A stretch of DNA of 64,000 nucleotides, from NCBI RefSeq assembly GCF_030010235.1, contig NZ_JASCRS010000006.1, positions 1 through 64,000 on the forward strand, read 5' to 3'. The stretch comes from Leucobacter sp. UT-8R-CII-1-4. Its GTDB lineage: Bacteria > Actinomycetota > Actinomycetes > Actinomycetales > Microbacteriaceae. A program made the translations under genes and the position numbers. The notes under the pieces were generated by a model that saw only the letters and a program-made list of their open reading frames with translations, had not been told where the DNA came from and did not search any database. Shown one piece after another: positions 39,866 to 51,816 of this stretch. Each line of letters begins with the position of its first letter. Positions within the stretch are counted from its first letter, which is position 1.

Positions 39866-40386
39866 CCGAGCAGGCTTCGCCACTTTCAGGGGCCGAGGAT
39901 CGCCAGCGGCTCGCGGCACAGCAGCACGTAGCCGCTACGGCGGCCGCGGAGCAAAGCGCACCGGCACCAAATCTCACACTGCGCAGTGGCGAGCACGGCG
40001 CTGCCCTCAGCGACACGCTCTGGCAGCAGGTCGGCGGCACCCCCACTTTTGAATTGATCGTGCATCACTTTTATCAAGGTGTGCGAAATGATCCGCTTTT
40101 GGCCCCGATGTACCCTCAAGACGATTGGGAAGGCTCAGAGTGGCGATTGCGCGCTTTTCTTGAGCAGTACTGGGGTGGCCCTGGCACCTATTCAGAACAG
40201 CGCGGCCATCCTCGTCTTCGTATGCGGCACATGCCGTTTGCTGTGTCGCCGAAGGCAAAGGAACACTGGCTGATGCACATGCACGCGGCTCTTGACCAGG
40301 CGGCTCTGCCCCCGATGCATGACGTAGCTTTCCGAGATTACATCGAGCGTGCAGCGCTGGCTATGGTGAATACCTTCGACGAGTAG
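39862..40386 (+). CDS. Group II truncated haemoglobin (GlbO type)
   Basis: A 174-residue protein. The globin core begins near residue 55 (TFELIVHHFYQGVRNDPLLAPMYP), with Tyr at B10 in HHFYQ and Trp at G8 in EHWLMHM. The proximal histidine is likely in GHPRLRMRHMPF. The first 50 residues are Ala/Gln-rich and not part of the globin fold. The TTG start overlaps the mscS stop (TTGA) and follows AGGGGGATCAC. Such globins handle oxygen or nitric oxide; linkage to pepN is common in actinobacteria. Confidence 0.92.
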   Translation: MTEQASPLSGAEDRQRLAAQQHVAATAAAEQSAPAPNLTLRSGEHGAALSDTLWQQVGGTPTFELIVHHFYQGVRNDPLLAPMYPQDDWEGSEWRLRAFLEQYWGGPGTYSEQRGHPRLRMRHMPFAVSPKAKEHWLMHMHAALDQAALPPMHDVAFRDYIERAALAMVNTFDE

Positions 40387-40622
40387 TAGTTGTCTGTGCC
40401 TTCGGTTGCATTTCATGCGCAGTCTCGGCTTTTTTGGCCATGCGTCTGAAGTTTGACCTGAGGTAACGAACAGATCACAATCACTGCTTTTCACCCCCGA
40501 AAGGGGGTAGCGTCAGGAGTGGTCTACGGTTCACTCAATGGCGAGAGCTCCGATAGATCACTTCACCCCTGACACTCCTCCACTGACTCCCGATTGGTGC
40601 CTCAGCAGCGGCGAGAGAACGT

Positions 40623-41183
40623 TCAACCAGCAGGGGTTTCTACCGGCGAGTGCGACCAGCCATCCTCCCCTAGCAAATAATCAATGCGGGTGTGCTGACG
40701 ATCTTCCCTGGCCTGCATAAACTCGAACTCATCTGGCACAAGCGCATAACGCTGCCAATCCTCATTTGGCACACCGGCATAGCTCGGACGACCAGCCCAA
40801 TCGGCCTGCGAAATCTCCTCGCTCAACGCAACCGCGTTACCAGTGATCCGCACCTGTCGACCGGTTTCACGCCAAAAGAACACAAACGAGATACGTGGAT
40901 TCGCAGCAATCTCTTGACCCTTGCGAGAGCTTCGATGCGTTGAAAAATGATACCCATCGGCATCAATGTCTTTCACGATGAGTGTGCGACCCACCGGAGT
41001 GCCGTCAGCACGCGTCGTGAGCATAGTCATTGCATGCGGCTGACGCGCCCCACCAGCAATGGCCGCTTCGAGCCAATCCAGAAAAAGCTCGTGCGGAGAA
41101 TCAGGCAAGTCTGATTCAAGCAGCACCGGAAGCTCAGCCGGAAAAGCGGGGAGTTCTCTGAGTCGTGATTCAAGCTCGCTCAT
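40623..41183 (-). CDS. pdxH: Pyridoxamine 5'-phosphate oxidase-like flavoprotein
   Basis: A 186-residue FMN-binding split-barrel protein. HAMTMLTTRADGTPVGRTLIVKDIDADGYHFSTH, then SSRKGQEIAANPRISFVFFW and RQVRITGNAVALS, follow the PdxH pattern, and EFEFMQAREDRQHTRIDY matches its RxHxR region. The final conserved dimerisation motif of true PdxH (RLxP) is replaced by HSPVETPAG, so substrate specificity may differ. The ATG is exactly six bases after a TAAGGT box. A likely PLP-salvage enzyme, but other PNPOx-family oxidases are possible. Confidence 0.82.
   Translation of the reverse strand: MSELESRLRELPAFPAELPVLLESDLPDSPHELFLDWLEAAIAGGARQPHAMTMLTTRADGTPVGRTLIVKDIDADGYHFSTHRSSRKGQEIAANPRISFVFFWRETGRQVRITGNAVALSEEISQADWAGRPSYAGVPNEDWQRYALVPDEFEFMQAREDRQHTRIDYLLGEDGWSHSPVETPAG
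41090..41095 (-). other. Codon within pdxH-like gene (no separate element)
   Basis: Nothing distinct is seen here; the leaderless promoter of this gene is at 41190-41195. Confidence 0.05.
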
Positions 41184-41189
41184 ACTTCT

Positions 41190-41195
41190 ACCTTA
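41190..41195 (-). promoter_or_regulatory. Leaderless -10 box of the pdxH-like gene
   Basis: TAAGGT on the minus strand, exactly 6 bases before the ATG at 41183. Confidence 0.5.
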
Positions 41196-41228
41196 GAAGC
41201 ATGAGCGAGCCCAGCGCGATATGCCCGC

Positions 41229-42452
41229 TCAGAGTTCTCGTGAAACTCGCTGCGATCCAGCTTGGAAAACCCGCAGCACCCGATCAGCAAAACCATCGAA
41301 ATCGAATGGATCGCCATCAACCACGATCACGTCAGCGCGCATGCCAACCTCAATACGACCACGGTCACCTAACCCAAGCAACTCAGCAGCAGAAATCGTG
41401 GCAGCCTCAATAACCTCGTGTGGCTCAAGGCCTGCCTCTTCCATCAGCGAAAGCTCAGCGAGGCTGTATTCATGCGGAAACACACCCGCATCAGTCCCCA
41501 TAGCGATACGCACACCAGCGTTCACCGCCTTGCGCACATTCACCATGTGCTGAGTGACCGCATCGCTCGCTTTCTGCTTCACCGTCGGAGAAACCTTCGC
41601 GCCGCCATCAATAGCTCGCAGCAGCGCAACCGGCGCGATCAGGGTAGGCACGAGCCAGGTGCCACGCTCAAGCATTGCATCCCAGCACTCATCTGTCGCG
41701 TAGATACCGTGCTCAACTGAGCGGACGCCACCGCGAACAGCGTTCAACACGCCAGCCGGGCCCTGGGCGTGAGCCATGACACCAAGACCAGTCACGGCCG
41801 CTTCGCGCACGCACATCTCAATCTCATCCATAGCAAACTGGCTGTGGCGAGGATCATCAGACGGTGAGAGCACGCCACCCGTAGTGCAGATCTTGATCAC
41901 ATCGGCACCCGCGCGCTGAAGCTCACGAACACGGGTACGCATCTCTTCAGGCCCGTTCACAATACCGCTCGGGCGACCCGGCGTCGCCGGCATCAGCGAA
42001 AGGTCGACGCCACACGGACTCATACCGTCAGAATGCCCACCGGTCTGACCGAGGATCGTGACCGCGGTGAGCACCTGAGGGCCCTCAATAAGACCCGTTG
42101 CAAGCGCGTGCTTGAGCCCCTGATCAGCGCCGCCAGCATCACGAACCGTGGTGATCCCACGCTCAAGAGTCTCACGCAACACCTTCGTGGCCCGGTAATA
42201 CGGAGTCGAATAAGGCTCATGCAAGCGCTGCATCTCGTCGACGCCATCAACCAGCAAATGCACATGGCTATCGATAAGCCCCGGCAGCACAGCCTTACCG
42301 TTGAGCTCCACAACCTCGTCAACGCGATCGTCACTCGGGTCGATCCGATCAGCAATCTCAAGAATGCCCTCTGCCGAGATCAGCAAATCTGCACGGCGCA
42401 GCTTCGAAGTTCCGACAAATAGATTTCCTCCACGAAGCAGTGTGGTGGTCAC
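41229..42452 (-). CDS. Metal-dependent amidohydrolase
   Basis: A 407-residue amidohydrolase-superfamily enzyme resembling the Xaa-Pro dipeptidase/imidazolonepropionase-like clade. Metal motifs are HVH in LIDSHVHLLVDG, a probable carboxylated Lys in DVIKICTTGGVLS, His in VMAHAQG and SVEHGIYA, and Asp in MGTDAGVFPH. Family landmarks GGHSDGMSP and GADVIKI are present. The substrate cannot be read; such enzymes often hydrolyse acylated amino acids or proline dipeptides. I chose GTG 42452, preceded by AAAGGGGGA; the frame extends 23 codons further without support. No transporter is adjacent. Confidence 0.88.
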   Translation of the reverse strand: MTTTLLRGGNLFVGTSKLRRADLLISAEGILEIADRIDPSDDRVDEVVELNGKAVLPGLIDSHVHLLVDGVDEMQRLHEPYSTPYYRATKVLRETLERGITTVRDAGGADQGLKHALATGLIEGPQVLTAVTILGQTGGHSDGMSPCGVDLSLMPATPGRPSGIVNGPEEMRTRVRELQRAGADVIKICTTGGVLSPSDDPRHSQFAMDEIEMCVREAAVTGLGVMAHAQGPAGVLNAVRGGVRSVEHGIYATDECWDAMLERGTWLVPTLIAPVALLRAIDGGAKVSPTVKQKASDAVTQHMVNVRKAVNAGVRIAMGTDAGVFPHEYSLAELSLMEEAGLEPHEVIEAATISAAELLGLGDRGRIEVGMRADVIVVDGDPFDFDGFADRVLRVFQAGSQRVSREL

Positions 42453-42588
42453 AGTGATTCCCCCTTTGGAATTTGACTTGCAGGTTCGCACATCGCCTTT
42501 TCTTGCGAGTGTACGCAACACTAATCGGTGGTTGATTGTGACGATTCACCGAACGCTCTACGCAAAACTGGTGGGTCGACCAAACTTG

Positions 42589-45500
42589 CTATCCAAGCGC
42601 CTCGATCAACACCTTCGCCTTACGCTTCACCGCAGCAGAACGAGTGGTGTCGCCAATTTCAACAAGACCCGCCCAGCCGGCTTCGCTCTCAAGCATCTGC
42701 CCCCGAGCAGCAGCAGCTCGCAGCACGGGAGCAAACTCAATCGCGATGTCGATGATCCGTACGAGCCAGCGCGGTGGTGTCGTACCGAGCGTGCTCGCGT
42801 GCGCAATCGACCGGGTCAACACCGGATAAAACGCCGATAGGAGCTCGGGATAACGTGAAAGCTGCCTCACCATCAGGTAGGGGTTAAAGTCGGCTTCGGC
42901 GAGCATCAGGCTCGTAGTATCGGCCATTCGAGTCGGCCCAAGCAGGCCGTTCTCAACCGCAGCACCGAAGTAGTACATCTCAGGGTCAGCTTGCTGCTGC
43001 GTGGCGAAAAACAGCACCATAAGTGAGCGCGAGAGCACGGGAGGCGCTTCGCGCCGGTAGCGCTCTGAGATCTCAACAAGCCGGCCAGACTCCGCATCAA
43101 ATTCAAGCCACTTTTGGTCGCCAAGGCTCGCCCGGCCTTCCATCCCAAGACCATACGTCCACGAGCTCTCGAATTGGCACTCCGTACCATCACCCAGAGT
43201 AAGGTGCACCACCATTACACTGCCGCGCTTCGTTTGCACCGCCTCATATTTCAGGATCGCGCCATCATCAATAGACGCTGGATCGCCAGTCGCCTGCCAA
43301 GCCTCAGCGAACTCGGTATCGCTCATCTCTGCCGGCGTAGCCAGCACGCCCGGTGATCCAGCGTTGCCCCCAGGACTCGCGACCATTGCTGTTTCAGGCA
43401 AAATCGACACGAGGGCGCGAGCTGCAGCAACCGCCTTCGATGAGCCCGTTCGGGACGCAATCGCGCGCACGCCTGGCAATGCCATTGTGTCGCTGCCCGC
43501 GAGGCCCGCGTCAACCGCAAGCTGCACCTCAGGCAGCATCAACTGAAGCAGCTCAATCGCTTCAGTGACACCGGGCGCGATGCGGCTTTGTTCCGAACTG
43601 ATCTGCACCACGTCTGCCACAAGCGGCCAGATAAGCGAAAGCATGCCGTTTTCGGCGAGTTCTTGCCAATTGCGCACTCGGGACGCGATTGACGAAATCG
43701 AACCGCCCCACACAAATTGTCGCGCGTCAGCAATTCCAGGCACGAGGGTGCCATGCTGCCAAGCCGCAATGGCCGCCTCAATGTCTCCGCTGCGCTCTTC
43801 AGAGAAGCTCAGCAGCGCAGAAGAAGGCACCACACCGTTTGGTGCCTTGCGATTTATCGCCGCTCCAGGCTGCCGCCACTCAAGTTCACTCTCTGCCCAA
43901 TTCGGAAACTCGGTGATTGTGATGTTGCGGCCGATCCGTCGATCAGGAAGATCAGCGCTACCGCTCAACTCCGCAATCGAAGGCAGCTCTTTAGCGAACC
44001 CATCGCTATCAAAACCCGGGTGTTCGTAAGGCTTCGAGAGCACAGTACCCAGCACATCACCGACATTCCGCCGCAACACTGTACCGTCTTGCAACACAAT
44101 ACGGACCGGCGAGGCGGCAAGCTTCGCCCGAAGAGTCACATCGAGAGAGTCACGGTCAAGGCGCGACAGCATCAGCTGCAAGTCAGCTTCTGAAACCGCA
44201 GCGTCGGCTTCAACATAGCGGTCAAGTCGTGCAGCGAGGTCGGCTCCATCGACACGAAAATCTTGCCAGGTAGGAGTAGAAAGCAGAATCGGAACCTCAC
44301 CGAGACGCAAAAAGACTGCGGCGGCGCGGGCTCGCACAACCGACTCAACGTGAGCGTTTTTGCCCGCCGAGGCCGGCTGATCCGCGCCAATCATAGTTTC
44401 TCCGCGCACCCATCCGCGCACCGGGTGCAGCACCGCTTCCCACCGCCTCGGTACACCGCGCAACGCCTCGCGGGCCGCGGCTGGGTCTTCGCGCGCGACC
44501 GCGTTGGCAGTCGCCAGGAAACGCTCACCAGCAAGCGTCAACGACTCATTGTTCGCGGCAAGCAGCTCAGAGGTGAGTGCAGTGAGTTCTTCTGCGCCGG
44601 ATCGCCCCTCCGCAAGGCGCGGCACTGCGGCGAGCGCTGGGGTCGCCTGCCAAAGGCCGCGCGCACCGGGAACAGGTTCTTCTTTGAGGGCTTGTGCGTC
44701 GAGTTGCCACGTGTCTTTGAGCTGCGCTGCTAGGGCTGCGAGCTTCTTGTCTTTGGCGTTCAGTAGCGGTGCGAGTGTTTCGGCGATTATCGTTTTGGTC
44801 TCGTCGCCTGGTTGCGCTGCCTGCATTGCGGCGGTGAGGACGGCCGCTTTCGCTTTGGTGCTTTTTGCGTTGAGTCCGATCAGTATGACCTGGGCGGTGA
44901 GTTCGTCGTCTGTGGCGCTCAGCAGTGTGGGTGTGAAGAGGTGGATGAGTGCGTCTTCACCGAAGCTCAGTACCGAGGCAAGTACACTCGCGTGTTCGAG
45001 CAGGAACGCTTCGTCTGCAGCGAGGTCGTTCGTGAGCACCTCAGCGAATGTTTTGCGGTCTATGGGGCGCTGGGCTGCTTCCATCGCGTAGAGGGTGAGT
45101 TCTTGTGCTTCACTCTGTTCGAGGTAACCTGCATCGACTGTGTGTTTGATCAGCCCTGACCAGTCGCCCGAGGTGCTCACTCCGCCGCGCAGCACGGCCC
45201 GTAGGTGTTCGGCGAGGCGTGGTGTGATTTCTGTTAACGGGACTTGAGCGCTGCGCGCGAGTGCTTCGGCTTCGCGGCGAGCTATCGGGTCGAGATTTTG
45301 TTTTGGGGTGCTCACTTCGAACGCTGCGAAGCTTTGGATCGCCCAGTTTTGTAGGTAGTCGGTGTCTGTGGGCAGGGGCGCTTCTGGCAGTTGGTTGAGG
45401 GCGCTCGTGATGGCTGGAGTGTAGCGGGAGCCGGCGCGGCGCAGTGCGGTGAACTGTGTGAGGAACTCTGCACCGCGAGCGGCCAGCAGCTTGGCTTGCG

Positions 45501-45807
45501 ACTCTACGGCGAGCGCGACCGGATAGACCTCGAATGCGCGGCGGGCTGGCACGCCGAGACGAATGGTGTAGACCCCGAGCAGGCAGGGGTCTACGTCTAT
45601 GGTGCTCACCCATCCCCAGGAGTCTTCAGCTATTTCTGCGAAGTTGCCCCACTCCCCTTTGGCGAGGCCTGCCTTTGCGGTCTTCTGCTGGGCGTTGTCG
45701 CCTAGGGGCAACGCCATGAGGTCGTCTTCTCTGCTCGCTTCATGCCAGCCGAGTTCTTTGAAGATTGCGAGTGATTTATCGAGTGCCGTCAGTGCTTCGG
45801 GGCTCAT
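42589..45807 (-). CDS. 1072-residue protein of unknown function, coupled to SWIM protein (DUF6493-like)
   Basis: A large, mostly helical soluble protein without a signal peptide or membrane span. The N-terminus (ALTALDKSLAIFKELGWHEA) is followed by long Ala/Leu-rich helical arrays (about 230-480, AEVLTNDLAADEAFLLEHASVL) that look like HEAT-type repeats, and a C-terminal mixed alpha/beta part (GDGTECQFESSWTYGLGMEG). I tentatively link it to the DUF6493 family found next to SWIM proteins in actinobacteria. ATG 45807 overlaps the SWIM gene stop by four bases (ATGA), so the two are coupled. Base composition of the gene switches abruptly near 44,690. No catalytic motif recognised. Confidence 0.8.
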   Translation of the reverse strand: MSPEALTALDKSLAIFKELGWHEASREDDLMALPLGDNAQQKTAKAGLAKGEWGNFAEIAEDSWGWVSTIDVDPCLLGVYTIRLGVPARRAFEVYPVALAVESQAKLLAARGAEFLTQFTALRRAGSRYTPAITSALNQLPEAPLPTDTDYLQNWAIQSFAAFEVSTPKQNLDPIARREAEALARSAQVPLTEITPRLAEHLRAVLRGGVSTSGDWSGLIKHTVDAGYLEQSEAQELTLYAMEAAQRPIDRKTFAEVLTNDLAADEAFLLEHASVLASVLSFGEDALIHLFTPTLLSATDDELTAQVILIGLNAKSTKAKAAVLTAAMQAAQPGDETKTIIAETLAPLLNAKDKKLAALAAQLKDTWQLDAQALKEEPVPGARGLWQATPALAAVPRLAEGRSGAEELTALTSELLAANNESLTLAGERFLATANAVAREDPAAAREALRGVPRRWEAVLHPVRGWVRGETMIGADQPASAGKNAHVESVVRARAAAVFLRLGEVPILLSTPTWQDFRVDGADLAARLDRYVEADAAVSEADLQLMLSRLDRDSLDVTLRAKLAASPVRIVLQDGTVLRRNVGDVLGTVLSKPYEHPGFDSDGFAKELPSIAELSGSADLPDRRIGRNITITEFPNWAESELEWRQPGAAINRKAPNGVVPSSALLSFSEERSGDIEAAIAAWQHGTLVPGIADARQFVWGGSISSIASRVRNWQELAENGMLSLIWPLVADVVQISSEQSRIAPGVTEAIELLQLMLPEVQLAVDAGLAGSDTMALPGVRAIASRTGSSKAVAAARALVSILPETAMVASPGGNAGSPGVLATPAEMSDTEFAEAWQATGDPASIDDGAILKYEAVQTKRGSVMVVHLTLGDGTECQFESSWTYGLGMEGRASLGDQKWLEFDAESGRLVEISERYRREAPPVLSRSLMVLFFATQQQADPEMYYFGAAVENGLLGPTRMADTTSLMLAEADFNPYLMVRQLSRYPELLSAFYPVLTRSIAHASTLGTTPPRWLVRIIDIAIEFAPVLRAAAARGQMLESEAGWAGLVEIGDTTRSAAVKRKAKVLIEALG

Positions 45808-47237
45808 GTCGGTTGTTGTCCTTCTGCGTGACGTTCGCGGCTGGGCCGGGTGAGCATGTTCGGTGCTGCGTTTGAGTCTGCGGCGCTCTGAGTGTGCTCG
45901 CTGAGTTCTACTGCGAGCGCGTGAGCACAGGGTCCTCGGCTGGTTCCGTGTCGCGCAAACCAGACGCAGGTGCAGCTGAGCCCCTGTGTCGTTTCTCGTA
46001 CCATGTGTGTGCTGGAGCCGGCGTTGACGATCCAACGCTCATGATCTCGTTGCACGCCCCCAGGCTGCGTGAGGATACTGCGCGCTCGTACGAGCCTGGG
46101 GTTGTCTCGGTCAACCCGTTCTGGGTTATCGGGTAGCTCGCGATGAAAGTAAACCTGTTCGCGAAGGTCCCAGCCCACACGGCCCGAGGCGGCAAGCACC
46201 GCGAGCGCTTCTTGAGTGTCGCTCGGTGAGAGTGCGGCTGCGTTGCTGAGTGCCGCGACGTCAATGCGGGGGTCGAATGAGAGCAGTGCAGAGAGTGTGG
46301 CCGCGTGTTCTTGCACGTCGGGGGTCGCTAGCGAGGCGAGCAGCGCACCTTCGCCCGAATACCCGCGAGAAGCGTTTGGGGTGAGCGTGATCAGCATCCG
46401 GGCGTGCGGTAGCTCTAGTTCGAAAGCGGATCCCCCCTCATGCTGAGGAGTGTCGACCGTATTGGGTTCGCCTTTCGGCGAGGTGCCATACACGGTGAGC
46501 GCTTGCGCTTGGGTGAGGAGGCGCTTGAGTGCGGACAAACGGTTTAGCCCACTCACAAAGACTGCGTTGCCCTGTTTTCTTGTGGCGACTTTAATTCCGC
46601 TTGGGGTCTGTGTGAGCCAGCCGTCACGGCCAAGTCCGGTTGCTGGTGGCAGGGCTGCGATGAAGGCTCGAGCTTGGGCTGCGGGGACGGTGAACCTCGG
46701 TTCAAGTGCGGTGTGTAGTTCGGCGGCGTTGCCGAGTGCGCGCACCCAACGGTCTGGCATTCGTACTGGCCGCTCGCTGTGTGCATCGCTGGGTGTTGCT
46801 GCTAAGAGCCCGTCGTTGCCGACGTTGAGGTGAAAGAGTTCGGTGCTTGCCACGTTTGCGAGTACGCGGCGCATGTCTGGGCCGATATCGACGTTGGTGG
46901 TTCCGGTGGCAATTTCTCCCCCGTCGAGTCCTGTGCCGAGTAGATCGAAACGTGCGTAGACTCCGTTGTCTGCTGAGAATACTTCTGCACGCAGTCGGTC
47001 GCCGTGCGCGGTGAGCACGGGATCGCGCATCTCGCTGGGCACCGGTTGGAAATAGCGGGTGGCTGCAATGTCTGCGAGCGTGAGTAGGCCCTGCGCGACC
47101 ACCCTTGGCGCAGTCGCAAACCCGTGAAAAAAGCTCGGTGTTTCGTCGAGGCCGTTTGGGGTGAGCGCTGGAGCGAGTGCAAGATCGAGGGCCGACTCCG
47201 AGCCGGTTGAAGCCAACGTGTACGCCCGAGCATTCAT
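45804..47237 (-). CDS. SWIM zinc-finger protein
   Basis: A 477-residue protein. Its C-terminal half holds a SWIM finger, CxCx(n)CxH, seen as LSCTCVWFARHGTSRGPCAHALAVEL (in two pieces: CTCVW, then CAHAL) near residues 430-450. SWIM domains bind DNA or proteins. The preceding 400 residues are not recognisable: beta-rich segments (TPSGIKVATRKQGNAVFVSGL) and a winged-helix-like part (DPRIDVAALSNAAALSPSDTQEALAVLAASGRVGWD). The ATG is six bases after a TAGGAT box. Its stop overlaps the large downstream gene. In other bacteria SWIM genes occur with MoxR ATPase and VWA genes; none is present here. Confidence 0.85.
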   Translation of the reverse strand: MNARAYTLASTGSESALDLALAPALTPNGLDETPSFFHGFATAPRVVAQGLLTLADIAATRYFQPVPSEMRDPVLTAHGDRLRAEVFSADNGVYARFDLLGTGLDGGEIATGTTNVDIGPDMRRVLANVASTELFHLNVGNDGLLAATPSDAHSERPVRMPDRWVRALGNAAELHTALEPRFTVPAAQARAFIAALPPATGLGRDGWLTQTPSGIKVATRKQGNAVFVSGLNRLSALKRLLTQAQALTVYGTSPKGEPNTVDTPQHEGGSAFELELPHARMLITLTPNASRGYSGEGALLASLATPDVQEHAATLSALLSFDPRIDVAALSNAAALSPSDTQEALAVLAASGRVGWDLREQVYFHRELPDNPERVDRDNPRLVRARSILTQPGGVQRDHERWIVNAGSSTHMVRETTQGLSCTCVWFARHGTSRGPCAHALAVELSEHTQSAADSNAAPNMLTRPSRERHAEGQQPT

Positions 47238-47243
47238 GAGAAA

Positions 47244-47249
47244 ATCCTA
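47244..47249 (-). promoter_or_regulatory. Leaderless -10 box of the SWIM operon
   Basis: TAGGAT on the minus strand, exactly 6 bases before the ATG at 47237. Confidence 0.55.
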
Positions 47250-47468
47250 GCAAGTGGCCATAATGTCCTCGCTGGGACGTTGGCCGGAATTCTGCAGAAG
47301 TTGAGCGCCGTTCGGGCTCGGTGGAGCTAGGCCATGACCGCAATCGGGCCTCAATAGTGCTTCAGTCGCGCTTCACCTCAGCGCGATCTGGGCGCACCTC
47401 GTGCGTATGCCAGATATACAGCGTGCTGAATTCGCCCAGCCCCAACGGACTGATACTCTTGAACCCGC

Positions 47469-47541
47469 GCCTCCGTAGCTCAGGGGATAGAGCAGCGGCC
47501 TTCTAATCCGCTGGTCGTAGGTTCGAATCCTACCGGGGGCA
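47469..47541 (+). tRNA. tRNA-Arg (anticodon TCT)
   Basis: A 73-base cloverleaf. The acceptor stem GCCTCCG pairs with CGGGGGC with one G-U. The anticodon loop CTTCTAA carries TCT at 47502-47504. The T-arm has the standard GTTCGAATCC. Discriminator base is A; CCA is not encoded. The anticodon stem closes with a C-T mismatch at positions 31-39. CTTTTTC follows at once and may end the transcript. Confidence 0.95.
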
Positions 47542-47574
47542 CTTTTTCACACAATAACTCGGCGTAGCCCCGAA

Positions 47575-50043
47575 CTACACCTGCTCGATCAAGTGCACCA
47601 GTTCGGCTCGGTTTTTCGCACCGAGCTTTTTCAGCGCGTTCGAGATGTGGTTTTCAACGGTGCGCCTACTGAGGCTCAACCGTTCCGCGATCTCAGGGTT
47701 CGACATGCTTGAGGCGAGCCGCGCAACTTCGAGTTCGCGTTTGCTTAGGAGTGCGCGCTGCTTTTCGATCACGAACTCTGGCTGGGGTACTTCTTCCTGC
47801 ACCAGGGAGAAAAGCGCGGCACTCAATTCGTTGTTACTCTCGCGCTCCGCTCTGCGCGCAGCAGAAGCTACCAGCCGTGACAGTAGCGCGTGGTCGTGAT
47901 GGTTTGGTGCTTCAGCAAGCACCGCCGTTGCAAGTTCAAGGTCGTTCGCCACCAGGGCATTGGCCAGCTTTATCGGACGGCGATACACCGTCTCGTCCGC
48001 GAAGGCTTCGGCTTCGGTGAGCGCGGCAACCACTGGCGCGCTGAATTCGAAGCTCAATACTGCGAAAGACATTTGAATCGCGCCAACGTTGTAACCGCGG
48101 TCGGTCCGAATTTTGATGGCTGCCGCCACTGCGATGTCTCTTTCCGGCGTGATCTTCTGCATTCCGGGTTCAGCCGACATCATGATCTCGATGATGTCCA
48201 AACCGATCCCCAAGAATGGGCCGGGGGCTGAAGACAGCTGTGCGGCTGTGCGCACGAGGTCATCTCGCAATGCCGCCTGTCCACGGAAGTGTGCCGACAT
48301 GGCCTGCAGGTTCAGCATGGCCGCGTAGATCGGGGTCATGGTCAGTCGAGGCCTGCCAATCACCAGACCCTCTTCGATAGCATCATTCGCGGCATCGGTA
48401 TCACCGAGATAAAAGTGAATGACTGCTGAAATGTAGGAGAGTGTCGCGAACATCGGTCGGTCAAAGGTGGCCCGTGCGACGTCACGCTCAGTGTGTACAA
48501 ATTCGAGCGCCGAATCGGGGTTGCCCTTCAATAGTTCTTGCATGCCGAAGAGATATGCATAGAGATAGCGCAACTGTCCGTTGCGGTGCAGCTCATGAAT
48601 TGCCTCGTCTGCTTCAGTGACCAGACCTCGCATCACTGCCCCCGACGCCCTCACAGCGACCGAGAACCCATATGGGTCATTTGCTACTTCAAAGTCTGAT
48701 GGCGGAGCCCCGGCCCCGTTGAGTGCACCCATCAATTCCCAGATGGATTCTGCTGTACCGGAAAGGTGCGGTGAAAAGAGCGCAAGGGTGTCAAGGTGTT
48801 TGCGCGCGCCGACAGAGTCTTCTTCAACGACAAGGGTCCAGGCCACGAGTTGCACATAGAACTCGAACTCATCGGAGTTGGGGTCGCGCAGTGTTGCCCG
48901 GGTTTCGGTGACTACGCGCTCGATTCTCGAGGCCTCAGAGCTTAGTCCGAGTGCTTCACGCAGGTACTGGGAGGCGTCGGCTGCGGTTCGCGAAGCATTC
49001 CATGCGGCGTAGAGCGGCTTGAGTACTTGATCTGCGTGGTCCGAGAACGAGCGCGCGAGGAGCGCATGATCGCTGCTGTGTGGGTGAAACGGCGAGGCAG
49101 AATGTGAATCCTGTGAAGCCGAGTCTTCGGTGTACAGAATACGTTCAGGTGCCCCACGGAACCTGTCAGCAAAGATTGGTGGCCACACCTGCAGCCGGGT
49201 TTCGTTGACGCCTTCGGCAAGGGCCAAATATCCCTGTGATAGGCCGCGTTCAATCAACTCAAGCGAATGAGCCGAGACGAGCGATTCAAGCGATCTCGGA
49301 CCTGACCAGCTCAGTGCTCGCATGAGTGAGCGCAATGCCGCATCGTCGTAGCCAAGCAGTGAATCGACAAAGGGAATCAGGTCATCTGACCAGAGAGATT
49401 GGCCTGCCAATCGCCAGATGCCTTCAACCTGGTGCAGGAGCCCACGGTCGCGAGCTCCCTCGATGATGGCTGCGGCGACGCCGACCACACCTCCCGATTT
49501 GGCATACACACGCACGACTGCGCCGGGGGCAATCGGGCCACCGAGCAGTTCACGCATCACCATGCCGGTGGCGGTGAGGTCAAGCGGAGGCAGACGGAGT
49601 ACCCGCTCGGGCCACACTGCCGGGAAGTCTTCTTCTCTGCCGCATCCCTGCAAGACGCTCACCACTACTCGCAATGAGAGCCTGTTTCGAATCTCATGCA
49701 GTGCGCGCAAACTCACCGAGTCGGCCAAATGTACATCATCGATAAGCAGGATGCTTGCCGATGAGATCCTCTCGCAGATCTCGTCTATTGAATCGCCAAG
49801 GCCCCGATGTTTCCGGCCAAGGCCAATCGCTGCGCGCAACTCCTCAAGCACTCTGCCCGGTTGCAACTGCGCAAGGGAATCTCCCTGAGTCAGGATCACT
49901 TCAAAGCCTGAAGCCTCGGCGTCAACCGCGATCTGTCTGATGAGGGTACTTCTGCCACTTTGATGCGAACCTACGATTCGCAGGTTCCTTTCGTTGCGCA
50001 GCGTCTCGCGCGCAGCCATCAATTCTTCTCTGTACAGAAACAT
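47575..50043 (-). CDS. Large LuxR-family regulator (LAL type)
   Basis: An 822-residue regulator. An N-terminal AAA/STAND ATPase domain (residues 1-300) has Walker A-like GSHQSGRST, where the usual Lys is replaced by Arg, and Walker B SILLIDDVH. A central TPR-like helical array (about 330-740) follows. The C-terminal LuxR helix-turn-helix is SKRELEVARLASSMSNPEIAERLSLSRRTVENHISNALKKLG in pieces. GGGGGA lies upstream of the ATG. LAL regulators switch on catabolic or secondary-metabolite genes in response to a ligand. It sits downstream of, and in the same direction as, the leucine-rich wall protein gene, from which a terminator separates it. Confidence 0.92.
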   Translation of the reverse strand: MFLYREELMAARETLRNERNLRIVGSHQSGRSTLIRQIAVDAEASGFEVILTQGDSLAQLQPGRVLEELRAAIGLGRKHRGLGDSIDEICERISSASILLIDDVHLADSVSLRALHEIRNRLSLRVVVSVLQGCGREEDFPAVWPERVLRLPPLDLTATGMVMRELLGGPIAPGAVVRVYAKSGGVVGVAAAIIEGARDRGLLHQVEGIWRLAGQSLWSDDLIPFVDSLLGYDDAALRSLMRALSWSGPRSLESLVSAHSLELIERGLSQGYLALAEGVNETRLQVWPPIFADRFRGAPERILYTEDSASQDSHSASPFHPHSSDHALLARSFSDHADQVLKPLYAAWNASRTAADASQYLREALGLSSEASRIERVVTETRATLRDPNSDEFEFYVQLVAWTLVVEEDSVGARKHLDTLALFSPHLSGTAESIWELMGALNGAGAPPSDFEVANDPYGFSVAVRASGAVMRGLVTEADEAIHELHRNGQLRYLYAYLFGMQELLKGNPDSALEFVHTERDVARATFDRPMFATLSYISAVIHFYLGDTDAANDAIEEGLVIGRPRLTMTPIYAAMLNLQAMSAHFRGQAALRDDLVRTAAQLSSAPGPFLGIGLDIIEIMMSAEPGMQKITPERDIAVAAAIKIRTDRGYNVGAIQMSFAVLSFEFSAPVVAALTEAEAFADETVYRRPIKLANALVANDLELATAVLAEAPNHHDHALLSRLVASAARRAERESNNELSAALFSLVQEEVPQPEFVIEKQRALLSKRELEVARLASSMSNPEIAERLSLSRRTVENHISNALKKLGAKNRAELVHLIEQV

Positions 50044-50169
50044 CCAGCAGTCCCCCGGTCAGCTTTGGCATGTTTGGCTTAAGTATGTGTCATAACGCTG
50101 GATCAACGCAGGATTTACGATCAAATAATTGTTCTTAAAATCTCACCTGTCGCGATTTTCAGGCAGACA

Positions 50170-50212
50170 AAAATCGTCGGCGACCCCGCTACCGGGTGCC
50201 GCCGACGATTTT
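50170..50212 (-). terminator. Intrinsic terminator after the LRR protein gene
   Basis: A 13-bp stem (50170-50182 with 50200-50212) begins 9 bases after the stop of the LRR gene. In the minus direction it is followed by a T-run (CGATTTTTGTC). Confidence 0.88.
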
Positions 50213-50220
50213 CGAACTTA

Positions 50221-51816
50221 CTAGTTCTGAGTGGCTCGCCGCCTTAGGTGCTGCGTTACCAACACAATCGCAGCGCCGAGCACGCTCAGCGTGAGGGCGA
50301 CAACACCGAAGGCCCACGGCGAATCAGCACCGGTGTTCACCAGCGGTGGTGTCACTCCGCCGGTGGTCGGCGGGCCAGGTTTCACAGGAGGTTCCGGCTT
50401 TACGGTCTTTGCCCCCACGTGAATCGTGTATTCGCGATCGAGCGTATTGCCGTGGCGGTCGGTGGCACGCACGGTGAAACTGAAATCGCCTTGCTCGCTC
50501 GGTGTCCCGCTGAGCTGGCCTTTTTCCCCAAGGCTCAACCCTGGTACTTCCCCCACGAGCAGGCTGTAGCCAGCGCCGTTCGTGTCTTCAATAAACCCCG
50601 GTGTCGTACTAAATACAAAGTTATATAGGGCCTCAAGCGATCCGTCGCCGGGCGTTTGGTTCGTAAAGTCTGCTCGCGCCACCGAGTAGTCAACGGTGGC
50701 AGAGAATGCTGGGCCGTTTGGCACTACTGCCTGCGATAGGTAGACCTCAAGCTTCTGCGAGTCTTCGGCGATTCCGCTCCAAGTTGCGCCTTCTCCGTCG
50801 GCCGTCGGCGTGGCGAGATCGACCACACGTTGGCGCTCACCAAACGGCATCTTGAAGAGCGAGACCACATCACTTCTGGTGTATTCGCTCGCGCCGCTCG
50901 GCACCAGAGCTTCACCACCGGTAACGGTCTGCGCGTTGAACCCGACGGTTGAGATGTTTGGCCAGGTCTCGAGCATGGAGAGGTCGGTGACATGGTTTCG
51001 ATTCACGTTGAGGAGACGAAGATTTTCTTTTCCACGCAACGGTTCGAGTGAAGAGATTTGGGCGCTCTGCGCACCGATTGTTGCGATCCGGGTGAGCGGT
51101 GTCAGTGGTTCAAGATCAGAAATTTCAGTGTTCTGAAAGTTCAGATCGTAGAGGCCAACGCTCTCGCGAATCGGATCAAGCGAAGTCACCTTGGTGTAGG
51201 CAAGCTGGAGCCAAAGCAGCGAGGTGTTTCCGCGCAGTGGTTCGAGTGTGTCAATCTCAGTCCAATTCACTTCAAGCCAGTTCAGTTCCGGCATATTCTG
51301 CAGTGGCGAGATATCTGAGATCGGGTTGCGGCTCACGGTGATCTGGCGCATCTGTGTGAGCCCACGAATCGGCTCCAACGACGAAATCTCGTTACCGTCG
51401 ATGTACAGCAGATCTAGATTTGAAGCGTCTTCAAGACCACTGAGGTCGGTAATTCCAACGTTTTTTGCGGTGAGAGAACGCAGCTTGCGCAGGTCTCCCT
51501 TGGTGAGGCCGCTCGGCGACGTCTTCAGCGCTTTTGCAATCTCGCGCTTCAGTACCTCGTCGGGAATCACTGCCAGTTCAGAATCGTCTGGTTGAACGGC
51601 GCGCGGCAATGGGCGTACCGTGCCGTCAGGTGTGGTTTCGCCGAGTCCGCTGCTTGCGTCGACCGGAATATCGATAAGACCGACGGCTTCGGCTGGTGCG
51701 GCGGCGGCGCCAATCAGTGCCGGTGCCAACATTAGGGCACCGACCACCATGGCAGCTATACGGCTGCCTGGCCTGGTGGTCTCGGTCTCACTTCGCCTCA
51801 TGCTTTTCGGCCTCAT
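50221..51816 (-). CDS. Internalin-like leucine-rich repeat cell-wall protein
   Basis: A 531-residue surface protein. It has a signal peptide (about 1-44, ending AEA-V), an internalin-type cap (VIPDEVLKREIAKALKTSPSGLTKGDL), then eight 22-residue leucine-rich repeats (about 110-290) of the LxxLxxxxxxIxxLxPLxxxxx kind. After that are beta-rich, Ig-like parts (PGLSLGEKGQLSGTPSEQGDFSFTVRATDRHG in pieces), a Pro-rich stalk, and a sorting-type end: LVNTG, a 20-residue hydrophobic span, and RRR. LVNTG is a variant of LPxTG. It probably binds a protein or sugar ligand at the cell surface. A near-perfect palindrome lies in its upstream region. Confidence 0.9.
   Translation of the reverse strand: MRPKSMRRSETETTRPGSRIAAMVVGALMLAPALIGAAAAPAEAVGLIDIPVDASSGLGETTPDGTVRPLPRAVQPDDSELAVIPDEVLKREIAKALKTSPSGLTKGDLRKLRSLTAKNVGITDLSGLEDASNLDLLYIDGNEISSLEPIRGLTQMRQITVSRNPISDISPLQNMPELNWLEVNWTEIDTLEPLRGNTSLLWLQLAYTKVTSLDPIRESVGLYDLNFQNTEISDLEPLTPLTRIATIGAQSAQISSLEPLRGKENLRLLNVNRNHVTDLSMLETWPNISTVGFNAQTVTGGEALVPSGASEYTRSDVVSLFKMPFGERQRVVDLATPTADGEGATWSGIAEDSQKLEVYLSQAVVPNGPAFSATVDYSVARADFTNQTPGDGSLEALYNFVFSTTPGFIEDTNGAGYSLLVGEVPGLSLGEKGQLSGTPSEQGDFSFTVRATDRHGNTLDREYTIHVGAKTVKPEPPVKPGPPTTGGVTPPLVNTGADSPWAFGVVALTLSVLGAAIVLVTQHLRRRATQN

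Follow-up and report, generated by a model that had tools for sequence, protein, structure and literature searches.

Overlapping SWIM and BIG genes at the Leucobacter locus

The window analyzed here is a 64,000-nucleotide (nt) stretch of Leucobacter sp. UT-8R-CII-1-4, positions 1 to 64,000 of contig NZ_JASCRS010000006.1 (GCF_030010235.1). It carries a gene for a SWIM zinc-finger protein (SWIM) whose stop codon overlaps the start codon of a gene for a large protein, here called BIG. The original prediction located this pair correctly, including its coordinates, the CxC...CxH SWIM finger, and the ATGA overlap with a large protein. The features of the locus, with open reading frames (ORFs) as translated, are as follows.

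45804-47237, (-) strand: SWIM gene, 477 residues (ORF translation)
42589-45807, (-) strand: BIG gene, 1072 residues from ATG (ORF translation)
45804-45807, (-) strand: ATGA junction, 4-nt overlap of the SWIM stop and the BIG start (comparison of 19 loci)
47244-47249, (-) strand: TAGGAT, candidate -10 box 6 nt 5' of the SWIM ATG (by eye and 25-locus comparison)
47469-47542, (+) strand: tRNA-Arg(tct), a neighbor outside the module, ~230 nt upstream of SWIM (tRNA/Rfam scan)

The SWIM stop position reads ATGA or GTGA in 18 of the 19 loci compared. The exception (L068) is a broken SWIM gene whose end was guessed, and the NCBI start of BIG in another locus (L076) lies 62 nt further downstream. Because an A or G ahead of a TGA stop has about an even chance, the weight of the junction evidence lies in the BIG frame opening there.

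Leaderless transcription of SWIM is plausible, as a TANNNT box close to the start fits leaderless transcription in actinobacteria. Such a box is present 6-8 nt 5' of the SWIM start in 11/25 loci against 0.049 expected per locus, the related loci not being independent; the count leaves out L064 and L066 (unsure starts), L031, L068, L072, later plasmid loci, and four corynebacterial loci. The AGGA inside TAGGAT could alternatively be a weak ribosome-binding site. The single leaderless promoter first proposed for the pair agrees with the box in the window and its counterparts elsewhere but not with a sigma-70 scan, which returned no promoter on the (-) strand at the pair.

SWIM matches the PADLOC profile SWIM_XIII (PDLC02972) with an E value of 5.7e-35. 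The Pfam SWIM family PF04434 scored 21.9 bits in the genome scan (cut-off 19.6), the single match in the 3.0-Mb genome, and 18.2 bits, just below that cut-off, in the protein scan; NCBIfam matched neither SWIM nor BIG. The zinc ligands C422, C424, C437, and H439 are unchanged in 31/31 sequences, and the family alignment reveals an N-terminal block in which D72, P73, E85, S88, G112, and D117 are invariant. Residues ~305-360 may form a winged helix: a relative gave winged-helix hints below cut-off (DprA_WH 0.0016, HTH_24 0.047), and the SWIM profile met three regulator chains in the PDB (E 0.44-0.82) at the columns of this possible fold. A GGDEF protein found with the profile at E 0.085 was not taken as a relative. 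Single-sequence searching of SWIM against the PDB gave chance-level matches only, and the single-sequence AlphaFold model was unusable, with a mean predicted local distance difference test (pLDDT) score of 32.9. The SWIM frame of one further genome (G277; L064 7830-10307) spans 825 residues, with ~400 residues ahead of the SWIM-family part, a possible fusion or misplaced start.

Co-occurrence of SWIM and BIG

SWIM is present in 9/54 genomes of the host genus, with BIG directly after it in 9/9 (as two ORFs in G035 and G003). The host genome contains one BIG match. Two more genomes of the genus have a BIG match without SWIM, one at a contig end (G026) and the other weak and partial (G014, 3.1e-4).

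For the phylum, an even draw of 396 genomes, the host's own included, was searched, with strong matches defined as E < 1e-30 for BIG and E < 1e-100 for SWIM. Strong SWIM and strong BIG matches fell in an identical set of 8/396 genomes from 5 genera and were adjacent in 8/8 (fragmentary in G117); weaker matches in G407, and in G281, G373, and G159 (a second one), were set aside. Were the draws independent, this overlap would have a p value of 7e-17, a figure weakened by the kinship of the 8 genomes and by profiles built partly from these loci. A SWIM_XIII scan, which is independent of our own loci, returned the same 8 genomes together with short C-terminal hits in G129 and G344. The matching protein of G129 looks like a helicase, judging from its sequence.

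The SWIM-BIG pair is present in two phyla. Among nine plasmid SWIM records, six have an adjacent BIG (both genes broken in L170), and of the other three, one is a reverse transcriptase (RT) locus, one is a fragment, and one holds a SWIM whose plasmid carries DUF6493 at another position. Conserved pairing without MoxR had been set beforehand as the check on a stand-alone two-gene module, and it was found in 9/9 SWIM-bearing genus genomes and in the same 8/396 phylum genomes, which supports such a module.

NCBI names the two proteins "SWIM zinc finger family protein" and "DUF6493 family protein". Pairs so named on Diaphorobacter, Asticcacaulis, and Streptomyces plasmids belong to the same families in the same order, with annotated overlap in Diaphorobacter and Asticcacaulis; unlike these, the window BIG is divergent, with just one stretch, of DUF7824, above the Pfam cut-off. 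The description of the pair as an undescribed system is therefore right only in part, as the SWIM half is in a defense-gene library and NCBI has already named the pair; among the papers available to our literature search, none dealt with DUF6493, DUF7824, DUF7825, WHSWIM, or type XIII retron proteins.

Relation of SWIM to type XIII retrons

The label XIII in SWIM_XIII is, we assume, retron type XIII. In PADLOC, a type XIII retron combines SWIM_XIII, either WGR_XIII or HEAT-ARM_XIII, and RT_XIII; the type was reportedly defined by Mestre et al. in 2020. We know of no non-coding RNA model for the msr-msd of this type, and Rfam matched only the tRNA within 40000-50500 of the window. In Variovorax, PADLOC has produced a hit labeled "retron type XIII" (PMC11953036).

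A plasmid-record search with the SWIM of a relative (L062) reached a locus of Methylobacterium bullatum (L072) in which consecutive genes match WGR_XIII (1.3e-251), SWIM_XIII (4.8e-213), and RT_XIII (6.6e-176). Used as a phmmer query, the SWIM of this locus found that of the window at 6e-14, along with SWIMs in 18 further stretches, but missed that of L027 at E 0.01. By sequence comparison, the window SWIM is homologous to the SWIM of the RT_XIII-bearing locus. The likeness extends to a large repeat-type partner encoded by a neighboring, overlapping gene, although the gene order is SWIM-BIG in the window and WGR-SWIM-RT in the retron locus.

RT_XIII, in contrast, has no counterpart here: RVT_1 gave 0 matches in the host genome (92.96% complete), and a full type XIII retron was rejected on this basis. 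No RT homologue was detected in the 26 stretches besides L072, the window included (L001, L032, L033, L034, L069, and L070 among them lack the pair), or in 17 corynebacterial stretches. The SWIM_XIII profile also has matches in Methanosarcina acetivorans, a control genome.

The BIG protein

DUF7824, at BIG residues 508-556 (6e-7; 29.9 bits vs. a cut-off of 27.5), is the sole Pfam family above cut-off. DUF6493 and DUF7825 went unreported for the window BIG at E up to 1; among BIG relatives, the set of DUF6493, DUF7824, and DUF7825 is present but varies in how complete it is. A C-terminal extension beginning at ~830 is missing in many relatives. Searches of BIG against the PDB gave chance-level matches by single sequence (best E 0.031) and none by profile.

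An AlphaFold model of BIG built from six sequences has a pLDDT of 57.9 overall and 73-86 across residues 221-370. This segment aligns with ARM repeats at Z 10-11, values that can be common for repeat proteins, with a root-mean-square deviation of 2.8-3.9 Å over ~135 residues, and BIG is predicted to contain an ARM/HEAT solenoid within ~145-375. BIG had been characterized as helical and motif-poor, which is mostly right; the DUF7824 stretch and a strand-rich stretch at ~850-914, in a weak part of the model (pLDDT under 50), depart from it.

Sequence divergence is concentrated in BIG. In 119/120 pairs drawn from 16 loci, SWIM shows higher conservation than BIG, with mean identities of 49 vs. 30% and a correlation of 0.90. 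In two species of the host genus, BIG is divided into two ORFs (L029 7951-11714 in G035; L031 7796-11319 in G003), with a 4-nt overlap in one species and a frame change in the other, reflecting either fission or sequence error.

A proposed conflict module

We tentatively propose that the pair is a stand-alone conflict module of a winged-helix SWIM protein (WH-SWIM) and a solenoid, with a SWIM half common to type XIII retrons and no need for a reverse transcriptase. Its role would lie in conflict with phages or toxins. In favor of this proposal we count the homology of SWIM to the retron SWIM, the lack of RT matches beside the pair, the joint occurrence and overlap of the two genes, the faster divergence of BIG, the differing chromosomal sites and plasmid copies, the BIG expansions, and the predicted solenoid.

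SWIM and BIG would act as one complex, with a fixed ratio set through the overlapping stop and start. SWIM, with its invariant acidic N-terminal residues, possible winged helix, and zinc finger, would be the nucleic-acid-binding and probably the effector half. BIG would be a fast-evolving α-solenoid that keeps SWIM inactive or aims it, and that may recognize a changing partner such as a phage or toxin protein. The role taken here by BIG alone would fall, in type XIII retrons, to a different solenoid (WGR or HEAT-ARM) together with RT-made multicopy single-stranded DNA (msDNA). In some corynebacteria, BIG is multiplied into a repertoire, with one SWIM copy found. A bolder form of the proposal combines one invariant WH-SWIM effector with diversified giant solenoid receptors (a single one in most genomes and dozens in some corynebacteria), one per invader protein, and has reverse-transcribed DNA taking over sensing in type XIII retrons; we regard this form as speculative and unlikely.

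Corynebacterial BIG arrays and possible toxin immunity

BIG is present in 18/201 genomes of a corynebacterial genus. Apart from G469, described below, 13 of the 18 were inspected; the stretch includes SWIM in 12 of the 13, and G618 has BIG only. The order is SWIM-BIG in 7 (two with 250-360 nt gaps), BIG-SWIM in 3, and divergent in 1, and in 1 SWIM lies inside an array region. In the three reversed loci (L130, L131, and L134 from G504, G518, and G664), BIG comes first and abuts SWIM; the RT-bearing locus likewise has its large repeat gene first.

A related-locus search gave one return, a Corynebacterium metagenome-assembled genome (G469), at whose locus BIG genes follow one another in tandem. 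The G469 stretches (L080-L091) hold 38 BIG ORFs, fragments included, 31 of which are at least 740 residues long. On contig C39 of this genome, a 372-residue ORF (L077 25-1143) that is not BIG by profile overlaps the SWIM gene. A second genome of the genus, G495, was examined over 340 kb of a 3.39-Mb contig (L102-L118) and has 27 BIG ORFs, 16 of at least 740 residues, within 145 kb (2071190-2215490 of C1), with one SWIM in the region. The best within-genome BIG matches are ~26-63% identical, apart from one partial pair at 79%. As 18/38 of the G469 BIG ORFs have a counterpart at 84-96% identity in the G495 stretch, much of the array is older than the split of the two species.

Among the 32 other ORFs at 2.116-2.216 Mb of G495 are three ankyrin, three DUF4241, two Imm-NTF2, one HNH, and one transposase gene, and DUF6138 and hexapeptide genes are also mixed into the array. 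PADLOC assigned 3/32 of these array neighbors to PDC-M72A and 1/32 to an Argonaute type. In 8 stretches with BIG genes that stand alone or end an array, 46 of 56 neighboring proteins were scanned, and SUKH (SMI1_KNR4) occurs in 3/46.

Such arrays would suit a toxin-immunity module, in which BIG solenoids would be immunity proteins binding incoming or self-made toxins and SWIM, retained beside the founder copy, would have an accessory role as adaptor or regulator. In polyimmunity loci as defined in PMC3482391, immunity paralogues that are often only distant relatives of each other stand in tandem arrays; Imm-HEAT, Imm-Ank, and Imm-NTF2 are named there. The runs of distantly related BIG paralogues in two related genomes fit that definition, and the ankyrin, Imm-NTF2, HNH, and DUF4241 genes of G495 and the SUKH genes near solitary or array-end BIG, taken as raw counts, may point the same way. 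The window itself differs from the polyimmunity loci of that source in having a single BIG tied to SWIM and no identified toxin partner. More broadly, most genomes with BIG carry one copy of it, tied to SWIM, which sets it apart from plain immunity genes; none of the BIG genes could be assigned a toxin gene; and BIG far exceeds typical immunity proteins in size. We consider toxin immunity a rather unlikely account of the pair.

Genomic sites, plasmid copies, and a regulatory alternative

Eight other module-bearing species of the host genus share the order trpB-SWIM-BIG-fmt (the trpB-like name being given from sequence). The trpB-fmt site was inspected in 12 genomes, namely 11 of the 45 SWIM-less genomes and the window's own: the two genes are adjacent in 9, the host included, and 3 have no trpB beside fmt. 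As the site is empty in its own genome, the window module occupies a second chromosomal site, by tRNA-Arg. The upstream neighbor there, at 47575-50043, is a LuxR-type (GerE) regulator of 822 residues whose N-terminal part looks like an ATPase, again judged from sequence. Four genomes of another, perhaps Streptomyces-like genus (g27) have like neighbors, with PhoD, a pyridoxal phosphate enzyme, GntR, and EamA represented by 4 members each.

SWIM copies are also carried on plasmids of Actinomycetes, Alphaproteobacteria, and Betaproteobacteria. On one Diaphorobacter plasmid, the pair (L073 5202-7780) directly follows an integrase gene, lies near a toxin-antitoxin pair of VapC/Phd type, and has two tandem DUF6493 genes.

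An ordinary regulatory or stress complex offers another explanation. A winged-helix SWIM regulator and a large HEAT scaffold would be inherited vertically with frequent loss and would have no conflict role. The stable trpB-fmt site in eight species, the like neighbors in the four g27 genomes, and the winged-helix-like region of SWIM favor it. The patchy distribution (9/54 genus and 8/396 phylum genomes), the plasmid-borne copies, the two insertion sites within one genus, the fast divergence of BIG, and a SWIM family common to the RT_XIII locus speak against it, and we judge such a complex fairly improbable.

MoxR and VWA genes

The pair had first been described as lacking MoxR/VWA partners. 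With the host MoxR as phmmer query (E 1e-5), no MoxR homologue was found in 27 stretches, and in the 17 corynebacterial stretches the sole match was a weak AAA hit (3e-7), with no BIG gene closer than ~45 kb. Of the 62 Pfam families matched in 64 neighbors, the best 25 did not include VWA, no VWA-specific or genome-wide search having been made. The description accordingly stands for MoxR near the pair and, for VWA, covers these 25 families. The host genome's single match to AAA_3 (MoxR-type) is on another contig, beside DUF58 and transglutaminase-like genes (names judged from sequence).

The accompanying idea that the pair is a reduced MoxR/VWA system is not supported, as SWIM belongs to the SWIM_XIII family, the neighborhoods searched are without MoxR, and the operon of the host MoxR is unrelated. 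MoxR-vWA ternary conflict systems resemble the pair in being multi-gene, with rapidly evolving partners, and widespread in actinobacteria (PMC7159879); they differ in their MoxR, and the text consulted contains no word beginning with SWIM. A reduced relative of MoxR/VWA/SWIM systems, which bear the pair a general resemblance through a large helical protein alongside the SWIM finger, is highly improbable, the more so as the SWIM_XIII profile is silent in the E. coli control genome although its SWIM protein matches PF04434.

Assessment of the proposal and implications

Several observations weigh against the proposed conflict module. The best Foldseek match of the BIG model in the PDB has E 5.4e-3, so that none reaches 0.001, and a Z near 11 is within the chance range for repeat proteins; for these reasons, a solenoid is claimed for BIG and kinship is not. 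The WGR_XIII and HEAT-ARM_XIII profiles matched 0/22 BIG-family members, and hhalign of BIG with one WGR_XIII protein gave a probability of 0.6%. BIG as a sequence homologue of the retron WGR or HEAT-ARM protein is therefore not supported, and only the SWIM half is common to the retron by sequence; a common solenoid fold may exist. The SWIM of the RT locus is a very long branch of the SWIM tree, and this locus, the single RT-bearing relative sampled, sets no direction of evolution. A catalytic domain was recognized in neither SWIM nor BIG.

The genomic record adds to these points. Solitary BIG/DUF6493 genes occur without SWIM nearby, as does one SWIM without BIG, and a whole-genome search of G469 found one SWIM, which adjoins no BIG. 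A Streptomyces-type SWIM query had no relative among 50,697 phage records, and 20 SWIM pattern matches in viral contigs yielded 0 confirmed. The stable site among housekeeping genes, in eight species and four g27 genomes, fits a regulator equally well.

With these points taken into account, the stand-alone conflict module remains the reading we tentatively prefer. The homology of SWIM to a retron type and the BIG repertoire are the surprising observations. What SWIM does in this poorly understood retron type becomes testable without RT or msDNA, as its SWIM half is seen here apart from the reverse transcriptase. A defense finder that requires an RT would presumably report just a lone SWIM_XIII hit at such loci. 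The two-gene module occurs in two phyla with natural partner repertoires and could help separate the recognition half from the effector half.

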